Below are positions 2,509 through 20,545 of a stretch of DNA of 33,858 nt, piece by piece (position 1 is the stretch's first letter; each line of letters begins with the position of its first letter). The stretch is from an uncultured Spartobacteria bacterium (GTDB taxonomy: Bacteria > Verrucomicrobiota > Verrucomicrobiia > Chthoniobacterales > Chthoniobacteraceae). The DNA lies in NCBI GenBank assembly GCA_903919125.1, contig CAIXGS010000047.1, positions 1-33,858 on the forward strand, in the 5' to 3' direction. The notes below the pieces were generated by a model, which was given only the letters and a program-made list of their open reading frames with translations, was not told the origin of the DNA and made no database searches. The position numbers were made by a program, and so were the translations under genes.

Positions 2509-4227
2509 TCAGTGCCGGATTAAGTCTGCGCCTTCACTCCAAAGCAGCGGTTGCGCCAGCAATGAGACATCATCCAGTTCGCTGCGTTGAAACTTCTCCC
2601 TCGTCTCGGCGACATCCTCCCAAGACTGGACACCCAGAGTGATTCTGTCCCCGGGGTGCAGTCCGGCTGCGGCGGAGAGTTGCCGCTCCTGAATGCTCCA
2701 AGTAAATACAAGGCACTCTTTTCGGGTGTCAGTCTCGGATCCATCCACTTCTACATCAACTAGATGAAGGCAGGCAACGTGCTCTTTATACGGCACGTTC
2801 CCTGGCCTTGGAATAGGAGACCTCTCTACGAGCGTGCCCGTGATTCGTGCGGTCTTACCTGATTGGGGACAATAAAATGTCGCGTCCTTCACGTCCTTTT
2901 GGGGGGCTGTTTCTAAAGGGATGTGTTTCCAGTCACCGAAGGCGAGTTCTCTCACAGCAAATTGCCAAATGAGAAGCTTTTTCCCCTTCAGTCGGTCGCG
3001 TCCTGCAGCGAGCTCTCTTTGAAGAATTTGACGCGTAGCAAATGCGCCGTCGCTGTTGCGTGCGATGAGATCGAGAGGTTGGTCCAGCGCCTGGCTCAAG
3101 TGTTCGGCGAGGCCGGCGCTCTCTCCCCAGCCCATGGCGTGGAGGGAGAAAATGTTGGTGAAGCTGTCCCCGAGCAACAATATTTCGGCTGTGGTTGAGG
3201 GCATCCAGAGAGAGCCTCCTTGAGATACTGGATGAATGGTGAGTGTTTGGGGTGCAAACTCCTTCTGGTCTTTAGGCAAACCAAGAAGTCCGACAGTATC
3301 TCCTAGGGCTGCGACTGATGCTGTGGGTTGATTTCCTGGCGGGGTGGCTGCGATTTCGGGGTTTAGAAATTTTGCCAGAGCGAGGGCCGCAGCCTCCATC
3401 GCGTCTGGCGTCCAATGGGTGTCAGCTTCGAGATACTGCGGCTGAGCGGTGGTGCGCAGGCGCTCCATCAGGAGGGGTGCCGGGTCGAAAACGGAGATAC
3501 CGAGGCGATGTAAGTCCGCCAAAAACTTAGCAAATCCTGCATTTTGTCGAAACTTTAACTCTCCAAGAGGCCGGTTTTGGTTGCGGAGTCGATCTCCTTC
3601 GATGCACGGCTTCACAGGAATTGGGAGCAGGACCAATCGGATTCCTCGTTCGGCGAGTTGGTGATGAAACTCAGTGATGGCCGCAAGAGGATCGGTGGCA
3701 ACATTCTCTTTAAGCTTACGGATTCGCTGGATGCGTGAATCCATAAAGTCTGGGCCATTGACGTAGTCGAGATCCTTGCGGAAAAATAGCCAGTGCTGGG
3801 GTGCGAGTATGACCTGTTCGTTACCTAAGCGAAACGTTTGCAGAAAGAACTGCTGCACAGAGGGGCGGAACGACCTCACCAAGGGGGCGTTGTCTTCGAG
3901 TTTTTTTTCGACCTCCTTTGTAGTCGCAGGAGAGGGGAGTTTTGCCCAGAATCTGTTTAGAATTCCCGACTCCTTCTCTGGATGATGCGTGGCATTGAGG
4001 CGGGAGATGATCGAGGAGAATGATTCTCTAGAAGGATCTGCTTTTTGAGCAAAAAACATCAAGGCTCCAGCACAAATGGTTAGTAAAAAGCCACCTATGC
4101 AGACGCGTTTTGCCATGGGAAAAAAGACAGTCCCGCCAAGGTCCTTGCGCGCCTGCTCTTCTCTGGACAATGCGGGCAACGCAGAGTTGGAGGCGGGTTT
4201 GGGGCTTTGGGATACTGGGGTGCCCAT
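2509..4227 (-). CDS. AlgX/AlgJ-like SGNH acetyltransferase with extra C-terminal domain
   Basis: This 572-residue protein is probably anchored by one N-terminal transmembrane helix (about 41-60) with its body outside the cytoplasm. The AlgX/AlgJ-type SGNH fold is shown by the phrase LAERGIRLVLLPIPVK (192-207), by DTHW with the catalytic Asp and His (D269, H271), and by GDSF with the nucleophile S355. Such proteins take acyl groups passed across the membrane by an MBOAT partner and transfer them to polysaccharide. The start is set at 4227 because it lies one base after the stop codon of the MBOAT gene, which points to translational coupling; an in-frame ATG at 4287 would overlap that gene by 59 bases. 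Residues about 450-550 form an additional domain that resembles the C-terminus of the 483-residue SGNH protein at 6862-8313. Acceptor polymer unknown. Confidence 0.85.
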   Translation of the reverse strand: MGTPVSQSPKPASNSALPALSREEQARKDLGGTVFFPMAKRVCIGGFLLTICAGALMFFAQKADPSRESFSSIISRLNATHHPEKESGILNRFWAKLPSPATTKEVEKKLEDNAPLVRSFRPSVQQFFLQTFRLGNEQVILAPQHWLFFRKDLDYVNGPDFMDSRIQRIRKLKENVATDPLAAITEFHHQLAERGIRLVLLPIPVKPCIEGDRLRNQNRPLGELKFRQNAGFAKFLADLHRLGISVFDPAPLLMERLRTTAQPQYLEADTHWTPDAMEAAALALAKFLNPEIAATPPGNQPTASVAALGDTVGLLGLPKDQKEFAPQTLTIHPVSQGGSLWMPSTTAEILLLGDSFTNIFSLHAMGWGESAGLAEHLSQALDQPLDLIARNSDGAFATRQILQRELAAGRDRLKGKKLLIWQFAVRELAFGDWKHIPLETAPQKDVKDATFYCPQSGKTARITGTLVERSPIPRPGNVPYKEHVACLHLVDVEVDGSETDTRKECLVFTWSIQERQLSAAAGLHPGDRITLGVQSWEDVAETREKFQRSELDDVSLLAQPLLWSEGADLIRH

Positions 4228-4228
4228 G

Positions 4229-5707
4229 CTAAAAGATGAAGTAGATGAACGGGTTGTAGTCTTGAGTGAGGAGGGAAACAATCGCAACCCAACCTAACGC
4301 GACGACCAGAGTTGCCTTGCGCCAGGTCAAAGACTGGGTCCAATCCCAAGTCTGGCTTCCGAAAAAGACAAAGCTGGCGGCCAAGAGGAGTTCAATCATG
4401 TAAAACGGCTGTTGTACAGGTCCCCCGAGGATTGAAAAAAGAGAATCCGTCTGGGGAATTGAGTGTATTGCAAACATGGTTCCCAAGTATTCTAGTGCCG
4501 CTGGGAGCGTGTCTGCCCGGAAAAAGACCCAGCCCACGCAGACAAAGGCGAAGGTCAGCCCGGTTGCCGCCCAATTTGGGAGTCGCAACTCTGGGAATTG
4601 TTTTGCAGCGATACGTTCTCCGGCCAAGGCCGCTCCGTGGAGTGCGCCCCAGACGAGAAAGTTCCAAGAGGCCCCGTGCCAGAGGCCGCCCAGTAGCATG
4701 GTTAGAAATAGATTGAAACAGGTGCGAACTTCTCCGCCGCGATTTCCCCCGAGCGGAATATAAAGATAATCTCGTAACCAAGAGGACAGTGAGATGTGCC
4801 AGCGGCGCCAAAAGTCAGTGATGGAAGTCGCGGAGTAAGGAGCATTAAAGTTTTGCGCAAAAATAAAGCCAAACATTAAACCCAGACCTATCGCCATATC
4901 GGAGTATCCGCCGAAGTCGAAATAGATCTGAAATGCGTAAGCAGTGACTCCGGTCCAGGCCTCCCAGACCGTTCTGGAGGCGGCGAAGAAATATGCGTCG
5001 GCGATTTTTCCACAGGGATTTGCGAGCAAGACTTTCTTTGCCAGTCCCAATAGAAAGAACATAGTCCCCCGAGAGAACTTATCAATGGTCAGGGTACGGC
5101 TTTTGAGTTGTTGAGCGAGGAAGGAAAACTTTAAAATGGGGCCGGCGACGAGATGAGGAAACATGGAAACGAAGCAGGAGAAATCGATAAAATTCTCCAT
5201 GGCTTCCGCCTCCCCACGATAGACATCGATGATATAGCTAAGGGCTTGAAATGTATAAAAGCTGATGCCGAGAGGGAGCACCACATGAAGAGTGGTTTGA
5301 AGGGAGGCACTGGAGAGGCCGAGGCTTGAGGCGATGGTATTCCAAGCCTCTATTCCGAAGTGAAAGTATTTAAAAAAGCCCAGTGCGGCGAGGTTGCTGG
5401 TGAGCGATAGTAACAGTGCTATTTTCTGGGTGGAACTCGGAGAGCGAGTGACGGGTGAGGGCTCTGTGTGGCTGCCTATCCAAAACAGCCAACGGTTTCT
5501 GGCGATGACCAGACTCAGTAGCCAGTCCAGGGTGGTTGTTGCGCCCATGAGGAGCACGAATCGAGGCTCCGCCCATCCGTAAAAGACATAACCGGTTAGC
5601 ACCAGCCACAAGTTGCGGATGCGAGTGGAGGCTCCAGCCAGCAGGTAATAGCCCGCCAGTGAGAGTGGCAGGAAATAGAATAAAAAAAGATGCGAACTAA
5701 ACACCAT
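4229..5707 (-). CDS. AlgI-like MBOAT membrane O-acyltransferase
   Basis: This 492-residue polytopic membrane protein has the AlgI/DltB-type MBOAT signature in order: PLGISFYTFQALSYIIDVYR (145-164), FWRRWHISLSSWLRDYLYIP (299-318), and GGLWHGA with the presumed catalytic histidine H344. In AlgI, PatA and DltB systems this protein moves an acyl group, usually acetyl from acetyl-CoA, across the inner membrane to a periplasmic SGNH partner. Here that partner is the AlgX-like gene directly downstream. The length is normal for AlgI (about 500). No alginate, cellulose or other polymer synthesis genes are in the window, so the modified glycan cannot be named. Transcription diverges from a second SGNH operon starting 105 bases away. 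The symbol algI is not given because the pathway is unproven. Confidence 0.92.
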   Translation of the reverse strand: MVFSSHLFLFYFLPLSLAGYYLLAGASTRIRNLWLVLTGYVFYGWAEPRFVLLMGATTTLDWLLSLVIARNRWLFWIGSHTEPSPVTRSPSSTQKIALLLSLTSNLAALGFFKYFHFGIEAWNTIASSLGLSSASLQTTLHVVLPLGISFYTFQALSYIIDVYRGEAEAMENFIDFSCFVSMFPHLVAGPILKFSFLAQQLKSRTLTIDKFSRGTMFFLLGLAKKVLLANPCGKIADAYFFAASRTVWEAWTGVTAYAFQIYFDFGGYSDMAIGLGLMFGFIFAQNFNAPYSATSITDFWRRWHISLSSWLRDYLYIPLGGNRGGEVRTCFNLFLTMLLGGLWHGASWNFLVWGALHGAALAGERIAAKQFPELRLPNWAATGLTFAFVCVGWVFFRADTLPAALEYLGTMFAIHSIPQTDSLFSILGGPVQQPFYMIELLLAASFVFFGSQTWDWTQSLTWRKATLVVALGWVAIVSLLTQDYNPFIYFIF

Positions 5708-5811
5708 GCGACTCGTGCGCCAAGCGGCAGAAGAACTTTTAACTGGAAAATATTGGTAGAGTACAACAGAAGAGCTTCAGCGATCCTCTGTTCACGCAAC
5801 GCCCCCCGAGT
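5708..5811. promoter_or_regulatory. Divergent promoter region of the two O-acylation operons
   Basis: Only 104 bases separate the starts of the MBOAT gene (minus) and the AlgX-like gene (plus), so promoters for both must lie here or overlap the genes. A weak plus-strand candidate is TTTAAC (5738-5743) and TACAAC (5762-5767), spaced 18 bases apart. No operator palindrome was seen. A shared region would allow the two operons to be co-regulated. Confidence 0.35.
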
Positions 5812-6849
5812 ATGACCATCAAAGCCCGAGCTGTTAATCCCATTTTGCAAGCGGTTTTGCGCATGATCTACATGGTTGCAGTGGGAATGGTGTTTTATAC
5901 TGGGCCGTTGTACGCAGCGGGCCCGGTTGGCGCTGGTGACAGCAGCAAGGCGGTTGTAGAGGGAAAAAATGGCAACCTTTTTCTTGCAGACGAGCTTCGA
6001 TTTCTGAGCTTCCCGAGCTTTTGGGGCTCGGCTTCTGCCAAGGCAGCGCACACCAGCAAGCCTGAGTTTTCTGACCCACTGCCAGCGATTTTTGACTTTC
6101 AAAGGCAATTACAGGAGCGCGGCATCATGTTACTCCTAGTGCCGGTACCCCCGAAGATCGAGATGGTCGACCGAGCGCTTGCGGACGGCTTGGAGGGTGT
6201 CCGTGCGAATGCTCTTTCGAAGTTCTACGAGCAGCTCCACGCGGGCGGGGTCGAAGTTCTGGATCTTCATGAGGTATTTGCTGCGCAGCAAGATGCTGGC
6301 ATCTCTATGTATTGCAAAACGGACTCTCATTGGTCTGGTGCCGGGTGTGTTACTGCGGCTCAATCCGTCGCCAAGAGGATCGCTGAAAAGCTGCCCGAGC
6401 TACAGAAGGACCACATCGAGTTTCAAGCTCAGTGGGAGGAACGCGTCATCCGAGGAGATCTCGCGGAACTTCTTGCGGCCGGCAAGCCCGAGGAAGAAAG
6501 CCTGAAGGTCAGGCGCATTTCGGGCGGTGCGGTGAGATCCGATCCTAAGAGTCCTCTGCTGATTATCGGCGACAGCCATACGCTGGCATTTCATGACTTT
6601 CTGGGGGACGCCGCAGGGTTTCCCGACCAATTAGCGTTTGAACTCAAGCTGCTGCCTGAATGGATAGGCACCCGTGGATCCGCAGCTAATGCTGTCCGGT
6701 TAAGTCTGTTGCGGCGCGCAACTAGAGAGGTTGACTATTTGGGATGTAAAAAAATCGTCGTTTGGTTGTTCGCGGCGCGCGAATTTACTGAAGCGGACCA
6801 AGGGTGGCAGAAAATTCCGTTGTCGGTACGCGGTGGCAGCGGGAAGTAA
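5812..6849 (+). CDS. Secreted AlgX/AlgJ-like SGNH protein
   Basis: This 345-residue protein has a likely signal segment (hydrophobic core about 18-35, ending near YAAG). The AlgX-type catalytic set is TDSHW, giving D171 and H173, and GDSH, giving the nucleophile S255. The segment LQERGIMLLLVPVPPK (100-115) matches LAERGIRLVLLPIPVK in the neighbouring 572-residue protein, so the two are homologous. It lacks that protein's C-terminal domain. It is the first gene of a plus-strand operon with two GDSL-type SGNH genes; the next gene starts 12 bases after its stop. A role in acylating an extracytoplasmic polysaccharide, or in removing the acyl group, is inferred. An ATG at 5863 is an alternative start that would shorten the signal peptide; no Shine-Dalgarno sequence decides. 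Confidence 0.8.
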   Translation: MTIKARAVNPILQAVLRMIYMVAVGMVFYTGPLYAAGPVGAGDSSKAVVEGKNGNLFLADELRFLSFPSFWGSASAKAAHTSKPEFSDPLPAIFDFQRQLQERGIMLLLVPVPPKIEMVDRALADGLEGVRANALSKFYEQLHAGGVEVLDLHEVFAAQQDAGISMYCKTDSHWSGAGCVTAAQSVAKRIAEKLPELQKDHIEFQAQWEERVIRGDLAELLAAGKPEEESLKVRRISGGAVRSDPKSPLLIIGDSHTLAFHDFLGDAAGFPDQLAFELKLLPEWIGTRGSAANAVRLSLLRRATREVDYLGCKKIVVWLFAAREFTEADQGWQKIPLSVRGGSGK

Positions 6850-6861
6850 TGGGATTCAGTA

Positions 6862-8313
6862 ATGAAGCATTTCACTCAACGGCTCGGTAATTTTACGTCG
6901 CACACTTCTTGTGTAAAAGTGGGTGTGCTTTTTTTTGCGGTGGTGAGCCTCATTTCTCCATTCGGCCATTTCGCGCGCGCGGAGGAAGGGCGGTGTCCTT
7001 GTGCAGAAAGCGAGGTTGAAAATTCAACGATCCATGAGGGGAAATCAGTTGGACTGGAGAAAAACCCACTGAACTTTGGAGCAACCGCTGCGGTGGCCTC
7101 ATCGGGATTGGTCGAAAAGAAGAATTTGGATACTCGGGTAGCGGGAGGTAACTTGTCTAAGGGGGCGAGTGTATTGGTTTTGGGAGATTCACTGGCTCTT
7201 TGCGGTTTTGGAAAAACACTCGATAACCGGTTGCGGAAGTGTCCTGATGTTACAGCGGTTTATTCCTACATGGCATGTGGAACAGTGCCAGTGAGTTGGT
7301 TGAAATCTGCTGGTTTCGCCAAAGTCCACACAGCCTGCGGGTTGTGGACTATACTGGGAAAGAGAGGGGAACGTCCGGCTGAGTTTCAGGACACCTATGG
7401 GATGGAAAAGGGAAAGCGTCCGGGGTCTCATCCGGTTCCAAAGTTGGAGCTGCTGCTCGAGGAGCATCACCCTGATATTCTTGTGGTTCAGAATGGCACC
7501 AATTTGCTTAGCCTATTTAGTGACGGCAAAACGCTGATACCGGTTCGGCACGAGGCCCAACTGCGCAACTATGTTGAGCCCTTCATAGCTTATCTTGCCG
7601 AACACGCGCCTACGCTAAAAAAGATCTATTGGGTTGCACCTCCTGTATCCGGTCGGGTGACGCCGGAGATTCAGGATTTTCTATTCAAGCACTTAGATGC
7701 TTATGCAAGTCCATTTTTCCAAACCATTGACAGCCGAGCGCTTCTGAAGCACCCCTACAAGGGGACGATGCCTGATAAAGAGCATTTTATGGGGCGCGAT
7801 ATGGATCTTTGGGCAGAGAGTGTTTTTGAGCAGGTTACTAAAGATTTAGCGGGAGGAGTCCTCAATGGCGCGCCGTTATCGAGAGAGCGGTTGTTGGTTT
7901 CCAAAAGGAAAGATAGCAATCAGAAAGGAACGCCAATCAGCGAGCGCCGCAAAAGCCTAGTGGTGAGGGCAAAATTGGTTGCCAAATCGACGCCGATTGA
8001 GACGGAACGATTGTTGCCCTACCAGGAATCATTGGTCAGTTATCTCTATCAGGTGAAGGAGCTTATTTCGGGCGAATACAAAGAGTCTGAGCTGACTGTG
8101 ATGCATCCTGCGCACGTCCGTTTAAATCCGCAGGCCCTCTCGAAATACAAGATTGGACGAACCTACACTCTTGATTTGGTTGATTTCGAAGGATCCCCTT
8201 GGGAGGCGATCAAGCGCAGCGAAGAGACAGGGCGAATCGAGCTTAGCCCTTACATTCGTCGGGAAGACGAGGTGAGATTTCCGTCTGTCGGCAATCAAGA
8301 GCAAAATCCATGA
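6862..8313 (+). CDS. Secreted GDSL/SGNH hydrolase-like protein with extra C-terminal domain
   Basis: The 483-residue product starts with a signal peptide (hydrophobic 19-33, cleavage probably after FARA). A variable, cysteine-containing linker (41-100) follows. The SGNH domain (about 102-330) has GDSL (S110), an NGTN block (211-214), and DKEH giving D305 and H308. Paired cysteines in MACG and TACG may form a disulphide. Its SGNH domain is clearly paralogous to the next gene: both have CG...W, P-KLE-LL and GTN in the same order. Residues about 365-460 form a further domain resembling the C-terminus of the AlgX-like protein at 2509-4227, which suggests both work on the same substrate or complex. 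SGNH family members include acetyl-esterases and acetyltransferases; the direction of the reaction cannot be told. The gene overlaps the next by ATGA. Confidence 0.75.
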   Translation: MKHFTQRLGNFTSHTSCVKVGVLFFAVVSLISPFGHFARAEEGRCPCAESEVENSTIHEGKSVGLEKNPLNFGATAAVASSGLVEKKNLDTRVAGGNLSKGASVLVLGDSLALCGFGKTLDNRLRKCPDVTAVYSYMACGTVPVSWLKSAGFAKVHTACGLWTILGKRGERPAEFQDTYGMEKGKRPGSHPVPKLELLLEEHHPDILVVQNGTNLLSLFSDGKTLIPVRHEAQLRNYVEPFIAYLAEHAPTLKKIYWVAPPVSGRVTPEIQDFLFKHLDAYASPFFQTIDSRALLKHPYKGTMPDKEHFMGRDMDLWAESVFEQVTKDLAGGVLNGAPLSRERLLVSKRKDSNQKGTPISERRKSLVVRAKLVAKSTPIETERLLPYQESLVSYLYQVKELISGEYKESELTVMHPAHVRLNPQALSKYKIGRTYTLDLVDFEGSPWEAIKRSEETGRIELSPYIRREDEVRFPSVGNQEQNP

Positions 8314-9142: not shown

Positions 9143-12100
9143 CTATTTGGAAAGCGTCCAAGTGCCTGTGGTTAGGCTGGGTACCACGCCGCTTTCCATC
9201 CAGCCTTGGGCCGCGCGCGAGCTGCTGGTGCCGGAATCGATTGAGGCACCTACAAATGTTCTTCGGGCGCCCGATGCAATATAGAAGCCCGACCACAAGC
9301 CTGTGGTGCGGTCTAGGCGCGGTCGGAATACGGGAGAAATCGTGGTGCCGTCTGAGGCTGTGTTCGAAACTGCGCTGACAACCGCAGAGGTTGAAATGGT
9401 GATCGCCCAAGAGTAGGTGAGTGAGGGGCCTGAAACTTGAGGATCGACGACACTCAGGGTCAGCGCGGTCGCGGTGGGTAGGAAGGTTGGCAAAGTTGCG
9501 GAACTGGTCCCGCACCAGCGTGCGCCGTCGTTGTGGGTAAAGGCGACTTTTGAGACGCCCGTAGAGTTTGTGCCGAGGGCGAACAGGGAGCCTGAGTAAA
9601 CTGGCACAATGCCGAGAGTGCCAGAGGCGCTTTTGAGCAGGTAGCTGGCTTGTTTTTCGAGGGTGCCAGAGTCGAGGGAAGCCGCCCAGAGAGAGCCGCT
9701 ACTAATATTGAAGTTGAGTTCCGCAAGTAGGCTTGTGGAGTTGTGCAGCTTGGTGGATGTAACCTGGCGGCCTTCGTACAACGAAACGGAGGGATTCGTG
9801 AGATCTGTGGTGTTGAGGTAGCCGGTACCGGTGCCTGTATAACCTTTGAGTCTCGTGTTCCAGAGCACCCGCCCGGAGGTGACCACTTGCGATTGGATAA
9901 AGGCTTGTTCGCCCACATTCGCAGCCAGCAGGTACTTGCCTACCAGCGTACTCAGGCTGCCGGCGGTCAAGCTCGTCGCCGCTTTGGCGATGTTGGCAGC
10001 CGCGCTTACACAGGTTCCACTTTGAAGGGAAACGAAGTCCGAGAGAGATGCACTCAATGTGGGGGCGGCTTGGGAGAGATCAAATTCTATGGTTAAACTT
10101 TGGCGCGCTGCTTGGGCTGTGGTTCCCAGCTTTGGCGTGAGTGTCATGGTCGAGGGTACCCCAGTTTTTGGGGCTAACCTTCCCGCAAACGTACGCACTA
10201 TAGGCGCATAAACCCGCTCTCCTGACGTGCCGCCCGAGAGCAGTGTCGCCTCGTTAAATTGCAGTCGTCCGGAAACTGAGCCGCTACGACTGACGGTTAC
10301 AGTGAGAAGTCCACGGTAGACGGAGCCGTCGTTGAGGGCGGTTGCGGCGGCGGATTCATTGGCTAGCAAGGTTTGGTAGGTGCCCATGGCGGAATCCCAT
10401 GTGGCGAAGGTCAGGTTAAACGGCTTGGAGAAGTCGTAAATTTTACCAGAGGCACTGGTGCGCTCGAAGCGGACGGAGTACGAACCGGAATCCGTCAACG
10501 ATTTGAGCGGGATATAAGCCACTCCAGTCGCGGAAACCGAACCGCTCACGGCGGTGGCAGTGGCGGTGCCGGAGTAAAGCGTGTAGGTGGTTTGAGTGCC
10601 GTTGGGTGGGGCGAAAAGGCTGATGGCGAGAGTCGCCTCGGAGCCCTTAATGAGTGCGACATCAGACGGAGGTTGAACGGAAACGAGCGAGCCGCTTTGG
10701 AGACTCACCGCGTTGACCAAGAGCACGACGCTGGCGCTGGTGAGACTTGTGCTCGTTGCGGAATCGGTGATTTGCACACTGTAGGAACCGGAGTCCGAGG
10801 TGGCCGCGCTTGGGATCGTGTAGCTTGAGCCAGTGCCGCCACTGACGGCAGAGCCGTCCTTTTTCCACTGGTAGGAAAGGGTCCCGCTTCCGACTGCCAG
10901 AACTGAAAAGGCTGCTGCGCTCCCCTCATCGAGTGTGAGGGCGGAAGGTTGAGTCAGAATCTCCAGCGAACCGCCAGTGAGAAGCGAGCCGCTTTGCCAG
11001 ATTTGACCGCTGCCGCCCACGATGAGAAAGGTGTTGTTGAAGAAGGTGGCGGCTTTTTCGCTGACTGCTCCGCTCGGCGCGTTGGATTGCGTCCAAGTCG
11101 CTCCATCCGTGGAGAGGACGTGGATTTTTGCATTACTGGATTCTTGGTCAACGCCTGCTGCAAGATAAACTCCTCCACCATAGGCAAGTGCTGGAGTTAG
11201 TTCGGTGGTGGAACGGGTGGTGGTGAACGTGGCGCCATTGTCGGTGGAAACTCTTAATTTGGAGTACCATCCGCTCCCCACGAATCGGTTGTTGAGGTAG
11301 GCGATGCTGTTGAGGTCGGTTGAGCTAGTGAGTCCGGAACCCGAGGTTTTAGTGACCCAGTTGGAGCCGTCTGTGGAGGTGTAAATCTGTCCGTCACCGC
11401 TGGCGCTGGAGAGGTTGTAGTTGTGTGATGTGGCCACAAATGTGCCTGAACCATAAGCAAGGCCAGTCACGGAATGCAGAGATGAGATAGAAACTGTGCC
11501 GGATGAAACGGAAGTCCATGCGCTGCCCCCGTCTGTGGAGCGTAGCAATCGGCCCGCATCGCCGCCCACGAGGAGAGTCCCTCCGACGCCCGCGACCGAT
11601 CGGAAGGCATTAATCGAAGAGGTGGAGGTGCTCGATGTGTATTTTTTACTCCACGTGATGCCGTCCGTGGACGTGTGAATTACTCCCACCCAACCGGTCG
11701 TGTAATCCAGACCGACCGCGACGAAGCGGGTTCCGTCCCAAGCAACCCCTTGGAGATACATGTTCGTCGGCGAGGAGAGCGTACGATCCGTCCAGATCTT
11801 CCCATCCGTTGAGGTCACGACCTTGCCCCTGTCGCCTACGGCAACCGCCAGCGAGCCGCTCGAGGCAATGCCATTGAGCGTAACCGTCCCGCTTGCCGTC
11901 GCGCTCCCGCCGGAAACCAGAGTGAAGCTCTGCGCCGGGTCACTGACCACCAACGAGGTGCCGCTGGTGACTGAGCCGCCTTTGCCATCGTTGACCGTCA
12001 GCGAGACGCTGTACGTTCCGCCCGCTGCGTACGTGTTGGTGAAAACGCTCGAGGTGCCGCTGTGAACTCCGTCGCCGGCGTCCCACCGGTAGCTCAGTGA

Positions 12101-15100
12101 GTCTCCGTCGGCGTCCGTCGCGGTTACAGCGAGCGTAATGGGCGCTCGGGCACTGCGCATGGTTTGCGCCACAAGCGAGGTGATAACTGGGGCGTTGTTG
12201 GTCGTCGCCAGGGTGTTGCTTTGGTATATTGCTCCTCCTGAACCAACACTAATGAGGCGGTTGTTGAAAAAGATCCCGTCATTCTGGTAGCTCATGCCTG
12301 TTGTAGGCGTGGAAGTTTTCCAGGTTCCTCCATCAATCGAGTACAGGTTAATGGGAGTGTAGGCGGTCGTCGTGTTACTCCCGACGGTGGTTTGCGTCAC
12401 AGTGTTTCCCGAAGCGAAGTAAAGTCCGGAGGCGTAGCCCAGCACGCTTGCGAGATCCGTTTCGGTACGCGAAGTGGAAAAGGTCAGCGTCCCGTTGTTG
12501 ATCGTCCCGGTTTTGAGTCCGGAGAGCCAACCGCTGGTGATAAATTTGCCGTTGAGGTAAGCGATTTTCTGGAAGTCTTCGTAAGTTGAGGAGAAACCAG
12601 CGCCCGTGGTTTGGTCAGTCCATGTCTCCCCAGTGGGCGAAGTGCAGACCACTCCATTTCCTGTAACCAACGACTCTGACCTTGCTGTGAGCACGAAAAG
12701 GCTTCCGCCGAACGCTATTCCACGACAAGACATCAAGCCGGAACTGACCGATGGGATTCCCGTGATAGCGGTCCAATTTGTCCCTCCATCCACGGAACGC
12801 AGCACCGTGCCAGAGTCGCCTACCGCGAGGATGACGTTATTCGCAGCGCAAACGGAACGAATCACGGTCTGGTCCATCGAAGAGCTGTAACGGCGCGTCC
12901 AAACGAGCCCATCAGACGAAGTATAGATGACTCCGTACCAACCAGCTGTATCACTATAATCCTGCCCCCCGACAATAAACCGGGTTCCGTCCCAAGTGAC
13001 GCATTCGAGGTAGATGTTCAAGGTCGATTCCGCAACGGCGCGCTCCGTCCAGACTATCCCGTCGGGTGAGGTGCGAATGACGTTGGAATTTCCCCCAGAT
13101 CCGTGATCTCCGACGGCGACAATCAGCGTGGGACTTGCAGCGACGGCATTGATGTCGGCGCTAGTGCCGCTGGTTCGCGAAGCGAATTTTTGCGCAGGAT
13201 CTTGGACATCGACGGACGCAGAAGCGGTGGCGGTGGCGCCCTTCATATCGCTCACTGTGAGGTTGATTGTGTAAGTTCCACCTGTGACGTAGGTGTGCGT
13301 GAATGTGGCGGCGCTTGCGCCTGAGCCGCCCGTGATCGTGCCGTCGCCCGCGTCCCAGAAATAGGCGAGGGTTGCGCCGGTGGAGCAGGTGGCGTTCGCT
13401 GTGAAAGTAGTCGCTGAGCGTGCGTTGAAGGTGCTTGTTCCCGCAGAAATCGAGGCAGTGCAAGACCCCGTGCTTAGCGTCCCCGTGTGGATTTGGACAT
13501 CGAGGTACTTGTTGTAGCCGCTACCGCCGTAACCCACAGGAGTGATATGCACTTTGGCGGTGGCGTCGGAATACGTGCGGCCGACGTCTAGTCCGGAGTC
13601 GGCCTTGCCTACAGTGGTTGATCCTAGCGAGGCCGTTCCAGAGGTAAGCGGGGTGGTGTCGATAAGCATGCACTTATCCTGCGAGTTTACCGAGGGGTAC
13701 CGCTCCCAAAGCATATATGCGCCTTGAGTAAGGTGCTGGTTGTCCGTGTTAGTGGGACGGTAACCGATCCAGTAGTACTCAGAGGTGGAGGTGCCTCCGG
13801 TGGTGGTGGTTCCTTTGGTGAGCCGTACGCCTCGGAGCGTTCCTGTGGTGAGCTCCGAATCAATCTGGTAAATGCGGTACAAATTGGAGCCCAAAGCGGT
13901 GGCGTCCTGCCATTGGGGAGTGGTTGCGCTGGCGGAGTCCGCACTACTGATCCAGCCCAGTTTCTGCTTGGCTTGAGGATGAAAGTGGCCGTTTGGAAGG
14001 GAGCCGTCTCCCATCACGTCGTATGGATCGCCATACTCCTTTTCAGCGCCGTCGCCCACGGCCGAGGAGGTGCCGGCGGTGACTTGCCAGAAATTGGAGT
14101 GGCCCAAACCGTAAACATGACCCATCTCGTGGACGTAGACCTTTGCGTCGTTGTTACCCTGCATCCAAAAATCTCCGCCACCGACGCTCGCGAGCCCTGC
14201 GATTTTGACTCCATTGCCATAACACCCGATGTCCACAAAGGTCACCCCAACGATGTCATAATCGCCCAAGTCGCCGCCTAAAATTCCCACTGTGGCTAGC
14301 GTCCCGATGTTGATGGCTGCGTCAGCCCCCGATTTAGTGGAGCGAAACTTCGTGCGTGCATCTTCCAGCAGCGTCGACATTTTACTGGTGAAGGTGCCCG
14401 CCGCTACTGAGTCTGATGGCCGCGTGCCGGCGTAGTATGTTGCGGTATTCGCTAGTTGATAAGTGCCGGAACTCACTGTGGTCGTCACGTAAGTGTTTCC
14501 ATATGAAAATTGGTAAAGTGAGGCGGCTGTCGTTCCCGCATTCGAAGTCCCGTTGATGACCGTTTCCGCCGCGCTTTTAGTGACAATAGACGTGTTGGAG
14601 GTGCCTGAGATCACGGCGCGGATTAAAAACATTTTCTTTGGCGTGCTCGTCCAATCCGTGGCAGCGGCTGCTGCTTGCATTTCTGCGGCGGGCAGGTTGA
14701 AGGCGGTAATGTTGCCGCTGGCTCCATCAACACTGTAGGGGAGCGAAAAGATCGCCCGCGAACCTGCGTGTGGACCAGGCTTTGTGTCCAACTTCGCGAT
14801 GGCGGCGTCAAATTTGAGCAATTCTTCCGAACTGGCGAAAGTGAACCGCTTGCCTCCAGCCAAGGCCGTTACCGCTTCACCTGTAATCGGTTCGCCCGTC
14901 ACAAAGCTACGCTTTGGATCGGGTTGTCCCGCAGGGAATTTAAGGGCAGCGACGCTCGCTTCCTCCGCGTTCAAGGGTTGAAATACGCCGTCGCGTAGAG
15001 CCGCTATTCCGTCCAAGGCGATGCCTTGAGTTGGCAGCCCTTGCTTGGAGTTGACTGCGGTTTTCTCTCCATAAACGAACCCTTGCACCACTTCGCCACT

Positions 15101-15685
15101 GGCAAATTGGATCTCGATCAAGGCCTGCCGAGCGTTGGGAGAATCATTCGCAGAGTTTCCCGGGCTCGGACACACTGGAAACAATTTGTAATTCACGGGT
15201 TCACTGAACGGCTTTTCCACCTCAGCCCTAATTCCAACGGGGAGCGCCTCCCATTCGTTTAAGTGAAGCGCCTCCTGAATGGCGGATTCCGGGTTGGAGC
15301 GGATCAACTGGGCCATGACGGGGCGGCGGGCCTGAGCGAGGGCGAGACCGGCTTCGAGCGCGTCCTTTTGCTGGTCTGGGGAGGCTTGTAGGTAATCCGC
15401 GAGCCACTGGCGAAAGGCGACGAGGGGCGGCAATACAGCAGAGGGGAGCGCTGGAGTGGCTACGGCTGGGAGCGGTGCTATTGAGTTGACGGGCGCGACT
15501 GGGGCGGGGGACGTCCCAGCAGGCGGAGCAAAGTTTGTCGAGGGCGCGCTCGTAGCGGTTTCCGGTGCGGGCGCGGGTTTGGAAACGTTTGCCTGACGCA
15601 TTTCAAAAACGAGCGCAACAAGGGAAAGGAATGCGCAGGTTAAGATTAACCAACGCACCGAAGGCCAAAGGGGTGTTTTTTTCAT
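9143..15685 (-). CDS. Giant surface-type metzincin metalloprotease with duplicated PKD and propeller modules
   Basis: The 2180-residue product begins with a hydrophobic segment (11-28) acting as signal or anchor, then a Pro/Ala/Thr-rich linker (34-88). The catalytic region lies within about 350-735. The zinc motif HExxHxxGxxH is at H519, E520, H523, G526 and H529, and YDVMGD (M558) supplies the Met-turn expected of metzincin-like peptidases. A PKD domain (about 740-828, WDAGDG at 777) precedes a BNR/WD-like propeller (about 832-1160). A second PKD (1164-1250, WDAGDG at 1201) and a second propeller (1254-1565) repeat this order. An Ig-like domain (about 1575-1658) and a Ser/Gly-rich C-terminal half (about 1760-2180) follow. 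It presumably acts outside the cell or on its surface. Substrate and anchoring are unknown. It is monocistronic, between convergent SGNH genes and a divergent secreted protein. Confidence 0.85.
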   Translation of the reverse strand: MKKTPLWPSVRWLILTCAFLSLVALVFEMRQANVSKPAPAPETATSAPSTNFAPPAGTSPAPVAPVNSIAPLPAVATPALPSAVLPPLVAFRQWLADYLQASPDQQKDALEAGLALAQARRPVMAQLIRSNPESAIQEALHLNEWEALPVGIRAEVEKPFSEPVNYKLFPVCPSPGNSANDSPNARQALIEIQFASGEVVQGFVYGEKTAVNSKQGLPTQGIALDGIAALRDGVFQPLNAEEASVAALKFPAGQPDPKRSFVTGEPITGEAVTALAGGKRFTFASSEELLKFDAAIAKLDTKPGPHAGSRAIFSLPYSVDGASGNITAFNLPAAEMQAAAAATDWTSTPKKMFLIRAVISGTSNTSIVTKSAAETVINGTSNAGTTAASLYQFSYGNTYVTTTVSSGTYQLANTATYYAGTRPSDSVAAGTFTSKMSTLLEDARTKFRSTKSGADAAINIGTLATVGILGGDLGDYDIVGVTFVDIGCYGNGVKIAGLASVGGGDFWMQGNNDAKVYVHEMGHVYGLGHSNFWQVTAGTSSAVGDGAEKEYGDPYDVMGDGSLPNGHFHPQAKQKLGWISSADSASATTPQWQDATALGSNLYRIYQIDSELTTGTLRGVRLTKGTTTTGGTSTSEYYWIGYRPTNTDNQHLTQGAYMLWERYPSVNSQDKCMLIDTTPLTSGTASLGSTTVGKADSGLDVGRTYSDATAKVHITPVGYGGSGYNKYLDVQIHTGTLSTGSCTASISAGTSTFNARSATTFTANATCSTGATLAYFWDAGDGTITGGSGASAATFTHTYVTGGTYTINLTVSDMKGATATASASVDVQDPAQKFASRTSGTSADINAVAASPTLIVAVGDHGSGGNSNVIRTSPDGIVWTERAVAESTLNIYLECVTWDGTRFIVGGQDYSDTAGWYGVIYTSSDGLVWTRRYSSSMDQTVIRSVCAANNVILAVGDSGTVLRSVDGGTNWTAITGIPSVSSGLMSCRGIAFGGSLFVLTARSESLVTGNGVVCTSPTGETWTDQTTGAGFSSTYEDFQKIAYLNGKFITSGWLSGLKTGTINNGTLTFSTSRTETDLASVLGYASGLYFASGNTVTQTTVGSNTTTAYTPINLYSIDGGTWKTSTPTTGMSYQNDGIFFNNRLISVGSGGAIYQSNTLATTNNAPVITSLVAQTMRSARAPITLAVTATDADGDSLSYRWDAGDGVHSGTSSVFTNTYAAGGTYSVSLTVNDGKGGSVTSGTSLVVSDPAQSFTLVSGGSATASGTVTLNGIASSGSLAVAVGDRGKVVTSTDGKIWTDRTLSSPTNMYLQGVAWDGTRFVAVGLDYTTGWVGVIHTSTDGITWSKKYTSSTSTSSINAFRSVAGVGGTLLVGGDAGRLLRSTDGGSAWTSVSSGTVSISSLHSVTGLAYGSGTFVATSHNYNLSSASGDGQIYTSTDGSNWVTKTSGSGLTSSTDLNSIAYLNNRFVGSGWYSKLRVSTDNGATFTTTRSTTELTPALAYGGGVYLAAGVDQESSNAKIHVLSTDGATWTQSNAPSGAVSEKAATFFNNTFLIVGGSGQIWQSGSLLTGGSLEILTQPSALTLDEGSAAAFSVLAVGSGTLSYQWKKDGSAVSGGTGSSYTIPSAATSDSGSYSVQITDSATSTSLTSASVVLLVNAVSLQSGSLVSVQPPSDVALIKGSEATLAISLFAPPNGTQTTYTLYSGTATATAVSGSVSATGVAYIPLKSLTDSGSYSVRFERTSASGKIYDFSKPFNLTFATWDSAMGTYQTLLANESAAATALNDGSVYRGLLTVTVSRSGSVSGRLQFNEATLLSGGTSGERVYAPIVRTFAGRLAPKTGVPSTMTLTPKLGTTAQAARQSLTIEFDLSQAAPTLSASLSDFVSLQSGTCVSAAANIAKAATSLTAGSLSTLVGKYLLAANVGEQAFIQSQVVTSGRVLWNTRLKGYTGTGTGYLNTTDLTNPSVSLYEGRQVTSTKLHNSTSLLAELNFNISSGSLWAASLDSGTLEKQASYLLKSASGTLGIVPVYSGSLFALGTNSTGVSKVAFTHNDGARWCGTSSATLPTFLPTATALTLSVVDPQVSGPSLTYSWAITISTSAVVSAVSNTASDGTTISPVFRPRLDRTTGLWSGFYIASGARRTFVGASIDSGTSSSRAAQGWMESGVVPSLTTGTWTLSK

Positions 15686-15941: not shown

Positions 15942-16682
15942 ATGCGTTCCCTCCTACTGGTTCCTTTCGTGTTAGCTTCCGCCGCCGTGGCTGCTGATTT
16001 GCCCGTCATTCCGTCTGCGCCTATCGCTCAGAAAAAGGAGCTTCTATTTTCCGACGACTTTCAGGGGGCCGAGCCCGCCAAGGTTTGGCATAAAGTCGTC
16101 CCTACTTTTTCTGTCGAAGATGGCGTTTTGAAAGGCACTCAGACCCGCGATACGGATGTCCCGGCGGCGGACGGCAAACCCGCAGTGAAGTCTCATGCAG
16201 CAGTGCATGGTTTGGAGATTCCAACCAAAGACAGCGTGGTGGAGGTCAAAATCCGCTTCGAAGGCGCCAGCATGATTGACGTCGAGTTCGATGACCGCGC
16301 GTACACAGGCGCGCATTACGGGCACCTTTGCCGGGCGCAGGTTCGTCTCAATGGCGTCACCCTGATTGACGAGCGGGACGGAGGAATGCGCAACGACATC
16401 CGTGAAATGGGTAATGATCCCACCAAAAAAGAAGAGCGCGCCAAGCTTTTGCAGGGACGTAGCGCGACTTTTCCTGCCGCTTTTGTCCCGGGTAAATGGT
16501 ACACGCTTCAGGTTGAAACCGTCGGGGACGCCATGCGCGTTTCCATGGATGGCACGCCCGTTGGCTACTTAAAGTCCTCGGGGATCGCTCATGCCACCAA
16601 ATCCAAGATCGAGCTCGGCGTGGCTGGTAAGAGCGGCTTGTTTGATGACATCAAGGTTTGGAACGCCGAAGCAGCGAAGTAA
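15942..16682 (+). CDS. Secreted protein of the DUF1080/3-keto-disaccharide hydrolase-like fold
   Basis: This 246-residue protein has a clear signal peptide (MRSLLLVPFVLASAAVAADL, cleavage near residue 18). A concanavalin-like beta-rich domain follows: LLFSDDFQG (34-42), VEDGVLKGT (58-66), a central VVEVKIRFEG and IDVEFDD, then VPGKWYTLQVETVGD (185-199) and FDDIKVWNA at the C-terminus. This order is typical of the DUF1080/3-keto-disaccharide hydrolase family and of LamG-type glycan-binding domains. Enzymatic activity cannot be asserted because I cannot verify catalytic residues. It precedes a CehA-like metallohydrolase by 109 bases, but a good stem-loop lies between them, so they may be separate transcripts. 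Confidence 0.7.
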   Translation: MRSLLLVPFVLASAAVAADLPVIPSAPIAQKKELLFSDDFQGAEPAKVWHKVVPTFSVEDGVLKGTQTRDTDVPAADGKPAVKSHAAVHGLEIPTKDSVVEVKIRFEGASMIDVEFDDRAYTGAHYGHLCRAQVRLNGVTLIDERDGGMRNDIREMGNDPTKKEERAKLLQGRSATFPAAFVPGKWYTLQVETVGDAMRVSMDGTPVGYLKSSGIAHATKSKIELGVAGKSGLFDDIKVWNAEAAK

Positions 16683-16705
16683 AAGCTCCGTTTTCGTTTC
16701 AGGCG

Positions 16706-16736
16706 CAGCAGCCGATTCTATCGGTTGCTGCCTTTG
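16706..16736 (+). terminator. Strong stem-loop after the DUF1080-like gene
   Basis: Bases 16706-16717 pair with 16721-16732 over 12 bp, with one G-T wobble, across the 3-base loop TCT. CTTT follows. The stem starts 23 bases after the stop codon. It probably ends or attenuates transcription before the CehA-like gene. The short T run makes its efficiency uncertain. Confidence 0.6.
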
Positions 16737-16791
16737 AATCCTCACATTTGTGGGCTTGCTCTTGAGGCTTTGAGGGACTTTATCAGGTGGG

Positions 16792-19410
16792 GTGATTCTC
16801 CCCATCTATCCCTGCCTGTCTCCCTCAGCGCGTCTCTCCACCGCTGCCTGTCTTGTAGTTTTCTCCGGTTTTGTCGCGCAAGTGCAGGCGAAGCCCGAGG
16901 TGCTGGAAGTAACGTCTGCCACCACCGCTCAACTCCCTCAAGGCAAGGAGGCCGATGGAATTATCGGCGATTTCGTCCTGCGTAATGATCGCATCGAAGC
17001 CGTCATCAGCGGCAATTTGCCTCTGCGCAGGGCCAATATGTCGACGTTTTACGGCGCCGACGGCATCACGCCAGGCTGTCTTTATGACCTGACTTTGCGC
17101 GGGGCCCAAAACGACCAGATCACTGTTTTCACTCCGGCATTTCAACAGGGAGCGGTTTCCTGGGTGCGAATCGTTGAACCGTCAACTTCGGGAGAGACTG
17201 CCGTGGAATGCGTCGTGACTGCGGCAAACGGTGGGGGTGTCTATCGAAAGCACGTCTACAGCTTGCAGGACGGTTGGCAGGGCTTGTTGGTGACCACCAC
17301 GCTACGCAACGAGAGCGAGACCGCGAAAAAGGTAGTTTTCGAAGACCGCTGGACGAACTTTCTGAAAACTGGAGTGGCTCCGGGCGGGATCCTTTGGGCG
17401 GATGCCGTCGATCCCGACGACCGGTGCGGGTACGCGGTCGGTCCGTTGCAGGATCCCTCAGGCGCCCTGAAGCGGGCTTCCGGAGAGTTGGCCCCCGGTG
17501 AAAGTGTGACATACACGCGCTTTTTGAGCGTCGGCCATTCTCCGACTGAGGCGGTCAACGAAGTCGCCCGCAAGCAAGGTCTGACCTCGACACTCTCGGG
17601 CTCAGTCCTCGATGCCATGGGGAACCCAGTCAAGAATGCCGCCGTTTGGGTGCGTCCCAGTTTTCCTGTCGAACTTCCTGCCAGCACCAAGACGCGCTCC
17701 AACCAACCCGACTTCAACGGGCGCCTTGCGGGAATCGCCTACGTGGACGCTGCCGGTAAGTTTGAAGCCGTTTTGCCTCCAGGTACTTACGAACTCACTG
17801 CGAGTGCGCCAGGCCGCGCCGACATTCAGCTCCCAGTGGAATGTCGCTCCAATTCAAACATTGCGGCGAATTTCAATCTGGGCCCCAGTGCTGGCATAGC
17901 CTTCGAGATCCAAGATGAGCAAGGCGTGTCTATTCCGTGCAAAGTGCAGTTTCTCGCGTTACCCGGTACGGAAGCCGTCAACCTTGGGCCCGACCAGCGC
18001 GCACACGGTTGCCGCGATCAATATCACAGTGAGAACGGGCGCTTCGAAGTGGCTATTCCTGCGGGACGTTACCATGTCGTCGTGACTCGCGGGATTGAAT
18101 ATAGCCATCTCGCGCAGGATGTTGAGCTCCTCCCGGGCAAGCCCGTCCGCATCGCTGGCACGCTGAAGCGCCTCGTTGATACACGCGGTTGGGTCAGCGC
18201 AGATTACCACACGCATTCCACCCCCAGCGGCGACAACGTGTGCGGCACCGCGGATCGCCTGATTAACCTTGCCGCGGAGCACATCGAATTCGCCCCGACT
18301 ACTGAACATAATCGTATCTTCAACTGGCGCCCTGAAATTGAGCGCCTCGGCCTGACGCAATTTTTGCAGACGGTTGTCGGAATCGAGTCCACGGGAAATA
18401 AGGCGCACTTTAACTCGTTCCCATTTGAACCCGTTCCGTTTACGCAGGACAATGGCGCTCCTGTCTGGAATGCCGATCCGCGCCTGAACGCTCTTACGTT
18501 ACGCGAGTGGCAAAAAGTGGAGCCCGATCGTTGGATTCAGATCAACCATCCTGATTTGGTGGCCAACTTTTTCACACCCCGTGGCACTGGAGACAAAGAA
18601 GGGGGTTATGCCGGTTTAGTGAAGCTCATCGACGGGTATGAGACTCAGAACTACAGCGAGTCTCGCATCTTGGATGGTAAGCCGTTTTCCATCACGCGTG
18701 GCGTTAGTGGTAACGAAACGATCACTTGGAACCGCGAGTTTTTGTGGCTGCAAATGCTCAATCAAGGTCGCCACACCAACGCGGTGGCGGTGAGCGATTC
18801 GCACACCGTTTTCGGTAATGGCGTGGGCGGGTGGCGGATGTTTATGCCTTCCGCGTCGGATGAGCCCGCGAAGATCGACTGGCGCGAAAATGTGCGTGCC
18901 GCCAAAGAGGGCCGCTCGTACCTAACCACCGGGCCGTTTCTACAAGTCACGACTCCCGAGGGCACCGGTCCCGGAGGTACGGTTCACTCCAAGGGGAAAC
19001 CCGTTAAATTGCAGGTCCGCGTGCAGTGCACCGATTGGATCGACATTGACCGAGTGCAAGTGCTCGTCAACGGACGTGCTTCCAAGGAGTTGAACTTCAC
19101 GCGTGCAACGCATCCCAGCTTTTTCAAGGACGGTGTGGTGAAGTTCGAACAGGTCATCGACGTGCCGTTAAAGGCGGCTGCGCACCTGATTGTAGTGGCT
19201 TACGGTGAAAACTTTACGCTTCAGACGGGCTACGGCTCGAGTCCTCAGGCATCCATTCACCCGATAGCTTATCACAATCCAATCTGGGTGGACGTCGACG
19301 GCCGGGGTTACACCCACAACGACGATCCCCTTGATTTTCCGGCTACGGGCCAAAAGGTGAGTCTGGAGGACGCGAAGTCGTTTTTGCAGAGTAAGGCGAA
19401 GACTCCCTAA
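16792..19410 (+). CDS. Exported CehA/McbA-like PHP-type metallohydrolase
   Basis: The 872-residue protein starts at GTG (16792), preceded by AGGTGG, and has a signal peptide (hydrophobic about 17-29, cleavage near VQA). Residues about 35-260 form a beta-rich N-terminal domain of unknown role. Residues about 266-345 look like a carboxypeptidase-regulatory-type beta-sandwich (SGSVLDAMGNPV to LPPGTYELTASAPG). The PHP-like catalytic domain (about 465-720) has DYHTHS (H473, H475), TTEHN (E505, H506), INHP (H586) and SDSH (D669, H671), all plausible metal ligands. A C-terminal beta region follows. CehA/McbA members include carbaryl hydrolase, but most act on unknown phosphoester, ester or amide substrates. 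Export and the glycan-type neighbour suggest an extracytoplasmic substrate. Function beyond metal-dependent hydrolysis is not asserted. Confidence 0.75.
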   Translation: MILPIYPCLSPSARLSTAACLVVFSGFVAQVQAKPEVLEVTSATTAQLPQGKEADGIIGDFVLRNDRIEAVISGNLPLRRANMSTFYGADGITPGCLYDLTLRGAQNDQITVFTPAFQQGAVSWVRIVEPSTSGETAVECVVTAANGGGVYRKHVYSLQDGWQGLLVTTTLRNESETAKKVVFEDRWTNFLKTGVAPGGILWADAVDPDDRCGYAVGPLQDPSGALKRASGELAPGESVTYTRFLSVGHSPTEAVNEVARKQGLTSTLSGSVLDAMGNPVKNAAVWVRPSFPVELPASTKTRSNQPDFNGRLAGIAYVDAAGKFEAVLPPGTYELTASAPGRADIQLPVECRSNSNIAANFNLGPSAGIAFEIQDEQGVSIPCKVQFLALPGTEAVNLGPDQRAHGCRDQYHSENGRFEVAIPAGRYHVVVTRGIEYSHLAQDVELLPGKPVRIAGTLKRLVDTRGWVSADYHTHSTPSGDNVCGTADRLINLAAEHIEFAPTTEHNRIFNWRPEIERLGLTQFLQTVVGIESTGNKAHFNSFPFEPVPFTQDNGAPVWNADPRLNALTLREWQKVEPDRWIQINHPDLVANFFTPRGTGDKEGGYAGLVKLIDGYETQNYSESRILDGKPFSITRGVSGNETITWNREFLWLQMLNQGRHTNAVAVSDSHTVFGNGVGGWRMFMPSASDEPAKIDWRENVRAAKEGRSYLTTGPFLQVTTPEGTGPGGTVHSKGKPVKLQVRVQCTDWIDIDRVQVLVNGRASKELNFTRATHPSFFKDGVVKFEQVIDVPLKAAAHLIVVAYGENFTLQTGYGSSPQASIHPIAYHNPIWVDVDGRGYTHNDDPLDFPATGQKVSLEDAKSFLQSKAKTP

Positions 19411-19489
19411 AACGCGCGACGGCTCGGCGCGGTGCTGCTCGGTGAGCTTCGAGGCTCGACGTTGCGGGCGGCTCTGTTTTCCTAAGCTC

Positions 19490-20545
19490 ATGTCACCCTT
19501 TTTTGCAGAACTCGGCCAGACGGTTGCCGAGCGTTGGCAGGCACTCAACTTCTCGCCCGGCTCGTTTCCCACTCTGGCCCGGCTTGCACTTGAGGAACGG
19601 CCTCCCTCGGAGCATGTAGATCTAACAGAGCTACTTCATGAGTTTCTATCCGACGATTCGCAGCCCTCTCAGAGTCAGTCGGGGTTTGGGCAACCTGAGC
19701 TCGTGGTCTTTGAGCATCCTCGTTTTTATATCCAGCTTTTGTTTTGGTTGGATGGAACCACGGACATTCACCAGCATACTTTTTCCGGTGCGTTCCACGT
19801 GTTGGAGGGCTCCAGCATTCATACGGAGTTCGCCTTTTTGGAGCCGGAACCGGTTTCGGCGCATCTGCAAGTCGGGCGGTTGGAGCGTCTCAAAACGCAG
19901 CTGCTGGAAAAGGGTGAGACGGTAGAAATCGTTTCAGGGAAGGGGTTTATCCACTCACTTTTCCATCTCGAAACACCTTCCATCACCGTAGTGGTTCGCA
20001 CGCATACCGATCCGAGCTCCAGCCCCCAATTCACCTACCTGCCGCCGCATCTCGCCGTAGATCCGTTTCAAAACGATTCGCTTACCCTCCGGCGCAAACA
20101 ACTCTTGGACGTGCTCGAGACTCTTGGCGATCCCTCTTACCCAACACTCGTGTGTGAAATGCTGGAGAATCTCGATTTTGAACGTGGCTTTTTCATCCTT
20201 CAGAATGGGATGGTTCACCTTCAGGCGAGCGGTTTCTGGGATGAAGTGTGGTCTGTTTTTGAAGCGAAACACGGGCGTCTCGCCGACTTCGTGCGTCCAA
20301 CCCTTGAGGAAATTCTGCGCCGCGACGCCCTCGTGGGCTTGAGAAGTTGTGTGGTGGAAGTCGAGCACCGCTTCTTTTTAGCGCTGATATTAAACAATCT
20401 GGATCGTAAAGACTTACTGCGGTTCGTCGGGCAGCGTTATGGCGGCGATCCGGCGGATACTGTGGCGCGTTGGCAGGCTGAATTGGAGGAAAACTACGAA
20501 GACGCTGCTTGGGTTTTGCAGGGGGCTGCCTCGATTTTGAACTGA
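19490..20545 (+). CDS. Cupin-like protein of unknown function
   Basis: The 351-residue product has no signal peptide, so it is probably cytoplasmic. Residues about 80-170 carry a cupin-like double motif: IHQHTFSGAFHVLEG supplies H94, H96 and E106, and GFIHSLFHLETPS supplies H155 and H159. That set could bind a metal. The C-terminal half (about 190-350) is mostly helical, rich in Leu, Phe and charged residues, and matches nothing I recognise. The start at 19490 is preferred over an in-frame ATG at 19442 because the extra 16 residues are Arg/Cys-rich and unlike a folded start; neither has a good ribosome binding site. It lies between the CehA-like gene and yaeQ, which faces it, with no clear functional link. 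Confidence 0.6.
   Translation: MSPFFAELGQTVAERWQALNFSPGSFPTLARLALEERPPSEHVDLTELLHEFLSDDSQPSQSQSGFGQPELVVFEHPRFYIQLLFWLDGTTDIHQHTFSGAFHVLEGSSIHTEFAFLEPEPVSAHLQVGRLERLKTQLLEKGETVEIVSGKGFIHSLFHLETPSITVVVRTHTDPSSSPQFTYLPPHLAVDPFQNDSLTLRRKQLLDVLETLGDPSYPTLVCEMLENLDFERGFFILQNGMVHLQASGFWDEVWSVFEAKHGRLADFVRPTLEEILRRDALVGLRSCVVEVEHRFFLALILNNLDRKDLLRFVGQRYGGDPADTVARWQAELEENYEDAAWVLQGAASILN

Follow-up and report, generated by a model that had tools for sequence, protein, structure and literature searches.

A giant predicted metalloprotease with two PKD-propeller cassettes

In a window of 33,858 nucleotides (the whole stretch of DNA analysed) from an uncultured Spartobacteria bacterium of the Chthoniobacteraceae (assembly GCA_903919125.1, contig CAIXGS010000047.1), an open reading frame (ORF) of 2180 amino acids occupies positions 9143-15685 on the minus strand, which is also the strand of every protein feature given below. 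By its zinc motif and Met-turn the encoded protein is a metzincin-type protease, and its catalytic part is followed by two consecutive cassettes of about 410 residues, each with a PKD domain and a predicted beta-propeller, by an Ig-like domain and by a long C-terminal module. An earlier interpretation made from the letters of the DNA (the sequence-only reading) had described the same parts in the same order, and all of them were recovered here. At the N-terminus, residues 1-30 (15596..15685) combine, by eye, positive charge with a hydrophobic stretch and are a putative signal peptide or N-terminal anchor; a proline-rich linker, also recognized by eye, comes after them. Comparison with relatives delimits an N-terminal domain that is common to them, a possible prodomain (residues 87-329, 14699..15427) that is mostly well predicted in the structural model described below, and a metzincin-like catalytic domain (residues 330-735, 13481..14698).

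A protease match was found in 27 of the 213 genomes of the window's order (E ≤ 1e-10) and in 37 of the 387 genomes of a phylum sample (E ≤ 1e-20). A scan of named genomes gave 472 candidates, of which the best 80 were used; going by their record titles, almost all of these 80 are Verrucomicrobiota, with one Kiritimatiellales and two short contigs labelled as gammaproteobacterial, and several titles of metagenome-assembled genomes (MAGs) among them look unreliable. Loci are named below by L numbers. The order set consisted of the window and 27 of the 36 fetched order relatives, 25 of these 28 rows being used in its alignment, and a wider protease alignment held 59 of 82 rows, the other 23, mostly close relatives, having been dropped by hand. 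The two short contigs (L104 and L107), which are assigned to Cocleimonas and Neptunomonas MAGs, carry protease relatives that lack the Cys172 discussed below, and reflect either transfer or misbinning.

The catalytic domain and its family

The motif HExxHxxGxxH was seen once in the window protein, as HEMGHVYGLGH at residues 519-529 (14099..14131), with the Met-turn EYGDPYDVMG at residues 550-559 (14009..14038). All 82 protease ORFs, the window's included, contain the zinc motif, and it is kept in the 28 rows of the order set, which was gathered without a motif pattern; the metal ligands are thus conserved in homologues, as the metzincin assignment of the sequence-only reading supposed. The Met of the Met-turn is invariant across the 25-row order alignment, whose rows are the only ones unbiased for this feature because the best 80 named-genome loci were found with a pattern spanning the Met-turn.

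In a Pfam scan of the window no protease model scored above its cutoff, the best being M10 at 15.7 bits (cutoff 24). Peptidase_M11 (PF05548) was matched by 35 of the 59 rows of the wider alignment at E ≤ 0.001 (best 2.3e-9), with scores of 29.8 bits for L114 and 22.9 bits for L101 (cutoff 21), and it is the nearest Pfam family of the protease group. Gametolysin-like metzincins (PF05548) have the zinc motif and the Met-turn in common with this group, whereas PKD-propeller cassettes are not part of the Peptidase_M11 model. When the window catalytic domain alone was used in a PDB sequence search, only chains of matrix metalloproteinase (MMP) 12 were returned (best E 0.088). A PDB profile search gave MMPs from E 6e-4, mostly across the zinc-motif stretch, and two NPCBM/NEW2 proteins at E 0.006-0.007; no chain named OgpA or M11 was found among the best 60 of its 101 matches. 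OgpA of Akkermansia muciniphila, as described in PMC7518263, resembles the window protein in being a zinc peptidase of verrucomicrobial origin that has three His ligands and a Met-turn. There, OgpA carries an NCBI annotation as M11, its metal-binding motif and structure are closest to M12 and a new family is proposed, and the authors report no evidence for a proenzyme (PMC7518263). The O-glycopeptidase activity described in that text is that of OgpA.

Sequence and predicted fold of the cassettes

Cassette 1 (residues 740-1160, 12206..13468) and cassette 2 (residues 1161-1572, 10970..12205) align in BLASTP with 241 bits (E = 2e-80), 170 of 416 positions being identical (41%) and 59% positive, and each has one WDAGDG, at residues 777 and 1201. 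The self-alignment of the two segments, on which the claim of a duplicated cassette hinged, is therefore highly significant. Pfam PKD models matched in two stretches each (PKD_4 at 91.9 bits, E = 2.7e-26, cutoff 27; PKD at 58.5 bits, cutoff 23.5). None of the Pfam propeller models matched the window, PF14870 not being listed at E ≤ 1; this model was found in the relative L101, and 2 of the 59 rows of the wider alignment match it at E ≤ 0.001.

An AlphaFold2 model of residues 87-1160, computed with 58 relatives (mean predicted local distance difference test score, pLDDT, 88.8; predicted template modelling score, pTM, 0.82), predicts that cassette 1 is a PKD domain followed by a beta-propeller. 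Foldseek places YCF48 propellers (2xbg, 5ojr; E 5.3e-12) first among the PDB entries that resemble the modelled cassette. With VIA-align, the cassette superimposes on virginiamycin B lyase with Z 29.6 (283 residues, 2.5 Å) and on a seven-bladed designed protein with Z 26.5, and the propeller probably has seven blades; eight- and six-bladed designed proteins are also in the Foldseek list. The likeness to YCF48-type propellers (PF14870) is one of fold, at an identity of 14-19%, and YCF48 is, unlike the window protein, a photosystem II assembly factor. Cassette 2 is taken to be a PKD domain plus propeller because it is homologous to cassette 1.

At the DNA level the two cassettes share only short stretches, the best being 42 bases at 81%, so that the copies are old. 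A recent duplication is excluded by the 41% protein identity and the little DNA similarity left over, and the mostly orthologous relation of the cassettes within the genus also speaks against it. When the window is compared with six genus relatives, identities are 42-58% between first cassettes and 44-69% between second cassettes; for L043 and L088, one crossed comparison to the window is nearly as close or closer.

Cassette number in relatives

Each PKD match above 50 bits was counted as a cassette if its ORF also had a propeller match above 15 bits. Among 24 complete cassette-bearing ORFs, the window's included, 19 have two cassettes, four have one and one (L101) has three, while 38 complete protease ORFs are without a propeller match and 20 further ORFs are truncated where their contigs stop. 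L087 and L092 are partial, and the single cassette of L092, which is labelled first+second in the protease tree, is doubtful because its ORF has an odd tail. The combination of protease and PKD-propeller cassettes, which had at first seemed unusual, recurs in Verrucomicrobiota and hence is not a one-off. Among the literature matches listed, judged by title or abstract opening, we found no publication on this architecture.

A set of paralogous genus proteins (L055, L065 and L068), placed on a very long branch, combines the protease with several Ig domains and a single cassette that is divergent. A further genus relative (L190, G011:C1) has an ORF of 1146 aa with a PKD domain and propeller pieces, then Ig domains; its propeller is interrupted by a low-complexity insert, and no protease was found in this ORF within the fetched stretch.

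History of the cassette array

The cassette tree, rooted at its midpoint, contains 56 cassettes; L042 and L047 (same as L086 and L103) and pieces shorter than 300 aa were left out, and it has no row from L068. Of the 22 first cassettes, 15 fall into one set of 20 rows (support 90/81). The seven that belong to the window's genus fall into another, of 34 rows (99/96), together with 20 of the 21 second cassettes. Inside the latter set, genus cassettes of both positions, 14 rows in all, form one set at 99/97. The genus, with 9 rows (100/99), adjoins 11 rows of the first+second type in the tree of the proteases, and the joint 20 rows are supported at 100/98. Most two-cassette relatives outside the genus have an old pair, one cassette of a first type and one of a second type.

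A single origin of all first cassettes was also considered, position being a natural way to group them. Approximately unbiased (AU) tests, run after the tree had been inspected and with L139 in neither group, rejected a single clade of first cassettes (p = 0.006; p = 0.001 without L088). The trees and these tests point to a second-type origin, as the type is defined in the relatives, for both cassettes of the window's genus. Two courses of events at the stem of the genus would account for this: loss of the first-type cassette with copying of the second, or conversion that overwrote the first. The window's cassette 1 has 31% identity to the first cassette of L091 and 43% to the second. Comparison with relatives suggests that, instead of being passed on unchanged, the window's pair has been rebuilt through copying or conversion, with a copy of one unit taking the place of the other; the trees show where the cassettes are placed, and the direction of the events is inferred from that placing. 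Cassettes also group with themselves in L101 (its first two, 100/97), in L088 (96/97) and in Cerasicoccus (L139, 99/95), so that cassette copying has recurred. The comparisons support an array that changes by the copying of whole cassettes. The proposal that the array grew by duplication of a whole cassette therefore holds in part: relatives, examined for cassette number, have one, two or three, and the window's pair does not go back to one simple duplication.

A conserved cysteine upstream of the catalytic domain

The N-terminal domain contains Cys172 (15170..15172), in FPVCPSPG. In its alignment column, for which 75 of the 82 rows were counted, Cys is present in 30 of the 31 cassette-bearing rows and in nine of the 44 others; three of these nine (L093, L096 and L109) are truncated by the ends of their contigs and are similar to the cassette group. 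Within the modelled region no other Cys is conserved: Cys172 is present in 31 of 33 cassette-group rows (all except L104 and L107), with the next column at 10 of 33, and in four of the 33 rows it is the sole Cys of the compared stretch. Judged by conservation, Cys172 would be free and not part of a conserved disulphide.

Most cassette-bearing rows have PxC around this residue, often PxCG, and several relatives have PVCGAP, which recalls the cysteine-switch motif PRCGXPD of MMPs as given in PMC6949598. In the zymogens described there, mammalian MMPs and the bacterial mirolysin, a Cys ahead of the catalytic domain is conserved (PMC6949598), and the window protein resembles them in this. The likeness is one of motif: the domain that precedes the catalytic part has 34 residues in mirolysin and 70-90 in MMPs, according to the same text (PMC6949598), and about 240 in the window protein. 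We consider Cys172 a candidate cysteine switch.

The Ig-like domain and the C-terminal module

The Ig-like domain (residues 1573-1655, 10721..10969) is recognized by Pfam Ig_3 and I-set, the Ig_3 match covering residues 1576-1639 with 34.5 bits (cutoff 30). The remaining 525 aa (residues 1656-2180, 9146..10720) have no Pfam match. A protein search detected this C-terminal module (E ≤ 1e-8) in nine of the 213 genomes, every one of them from the window's genus, and a profile search in 13 (E ≤ 1e-6); in four of these 13, two from the genus and two from outside it, the match is weak and confined to the first third. The module is thus nearly limited to the genus. This genome has five near-full copies, the window's included, all at the end of an ORF, and a sixth copy that is a fragment. 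In three of the four other ORFs with near-full copies, Pfam found YHYH and Lcl_C, Ig domains with PATR repeats, and Ig domains, respectively. The alignment of the module suggests, by eye only, internal repeats. From its position, the module is a candidate lineage-specific sorting or anchoring module.

Neighbouring genes

Ten neighbouring genes of the window were compared with the short fetched flanks of the relatives. Next to the protease gene of L084, the closest relative, four of them had matches at 87-98% identity; the other matches were one at 30% in L082 and one MBOAT protein at 40% in L094. With flank matches nearly confined to L084 in these short flanks, a conserved operon was discarded. 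At window positions 2509-8313, two AlgX-like SGNH proteins lie around an MBOAT O-acyltransferase, together with a protein that has a sub-cutoff DUF459 match, which looks like a polysaccharide O-acetylation locus. Positions 15942-20545 encode a protein with a sub-cutoff match to 3-keto-disaccharide hydrolase and a metallohydrolase of the CehA/McbA family that includes a carboxypeptidase-regulatory domain, and also contain an unassigned ORF; within the fetched flanks, close matches to these genes were found in L084 only.

Discussion

We think it reasonably probable that the ORF encodes a secreted metzincin-type protease, nearest to the gametolysin-like (M11-like) enzymes, with an evolvable cassette array, latency through Cys172 and anchoring through the C-terminal module. 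The protease would be exported and kept latent by its N-terminal domain, with Cys172 blocking the zinc, until processing activates it. The PKD-propeller cassettes and the Ig-like domain would guide it to its target, perhaps a large polymer or another cell, and the genus-specific C-terminal module would hold it at or near the cell surface. In the genus, turnover of the array would have removed the ancestral first-type cassette, by loss or by overwriting with a second-type copy. Export, latency, propeller binding, anchoring and substrate are the inferred parts of this proposal.

Several observations weigh against it. The window itself does not match Peptidase_M11, either as the whole protein (E ≤ 1) or as the domain alone (E ≤ 0.1), for which reason it is termed M11-like here and kept out of that family; the structure-match lists for the 87-1160 model were filled by propellers and hence gave no comparison of the protease fold. 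At the Cys172 column, 35 of the 44 non-cassette relatives have no Cys, and in the AlphaFold2 model the residue adjoins a low-confidence loop. The model of the C-terminal module, made from four sequences, is poor (pLDDT 58.3, pTM 0.43), so that anchoring is argued from position, and the protease ORFs of L043 and L088, of the same genus, have no match to the module. As for the array, first cassettes of the Verrucomicrobiaceae type match the propeller profile in weak pieces only, the window's cassette 1 is closer to cassette 1 of L103 (35%) than to its cassette 2 (31%), and six rows of the cassette tree, the window's cassette 1 among them, have an odd letter make-up. The midpoint root limits how far the history can be read, and gene conversion would yield the same tree as loss and re-duplication.

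The last point bears on an alternative to which we give a substantial chance, somewhat short of even, namely that the genus pair arose by gene conversion between two cassettes that were always present. Repeated homogenisation predicts pairs that group with themselves, as those of L088 and Cerasicoccus do. Both routes lead to one topology, which offers no decisive counterpoint; within the genus, however, firsts (6 rows, 96/87) and seconds (6 rows, 92/91) separate, L088 excepted, and conversion at the stem would therefore be a single old event.

The protein might also be mainly a giant adhesin, whose PKD, Ig and propeller domains would attach to cells or matrix while its protease would serve only for self-trimming or be a minor component. 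Two thirds of the chain (residues 740-2180) lie outside the protease, L190 has PKD and propeller pieces where no protease was found, and further large proteins of this genome carry the C-terminal module, with Ig domains in two of the three scanned. The catalytic motif is nevertheless intact in every one of the protease ORFs, and the complete relatives without a propeller match are proteases all the same, from which we take the protease to be the constant part and regard an adhesin as rather unlikely. That the propellers are themselves enzymes, of a lyase or sialidase-like kind, is very improbable: virginiamycin B lyase is the closest match by Z-score, with CylK, an alkylating enzyme, next, but these rows have an identity of 8-12% and the propeller fold alone indicates no function. 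A secreted protease with a binding array is the explanation that we prefer.

More speculatively, and with considerable doubt, we suggest a latent protease family of Verrucomicrobiota in which cassette number stays around two and copies of the neighbouring cassette have replaced the one in the first slot again and again (at the genus stem, in L088, in Cerasicoccus and, as an extra copy, in L101), yielding retargetable surface proteases with a cysteine-switch catch. The protein offers a constant protease joined to a binding array that has left its history in the sequences: most two-cassette relatives keep an old pair, one genus has replaced it, and an extra copy has arisen elsewhere. It would provide an expressible system for asking which ligands PKD-propeller cassettes bind, whether array turnover tracks changes of target, and whether cysteine-switch latency operates in these bacteria.

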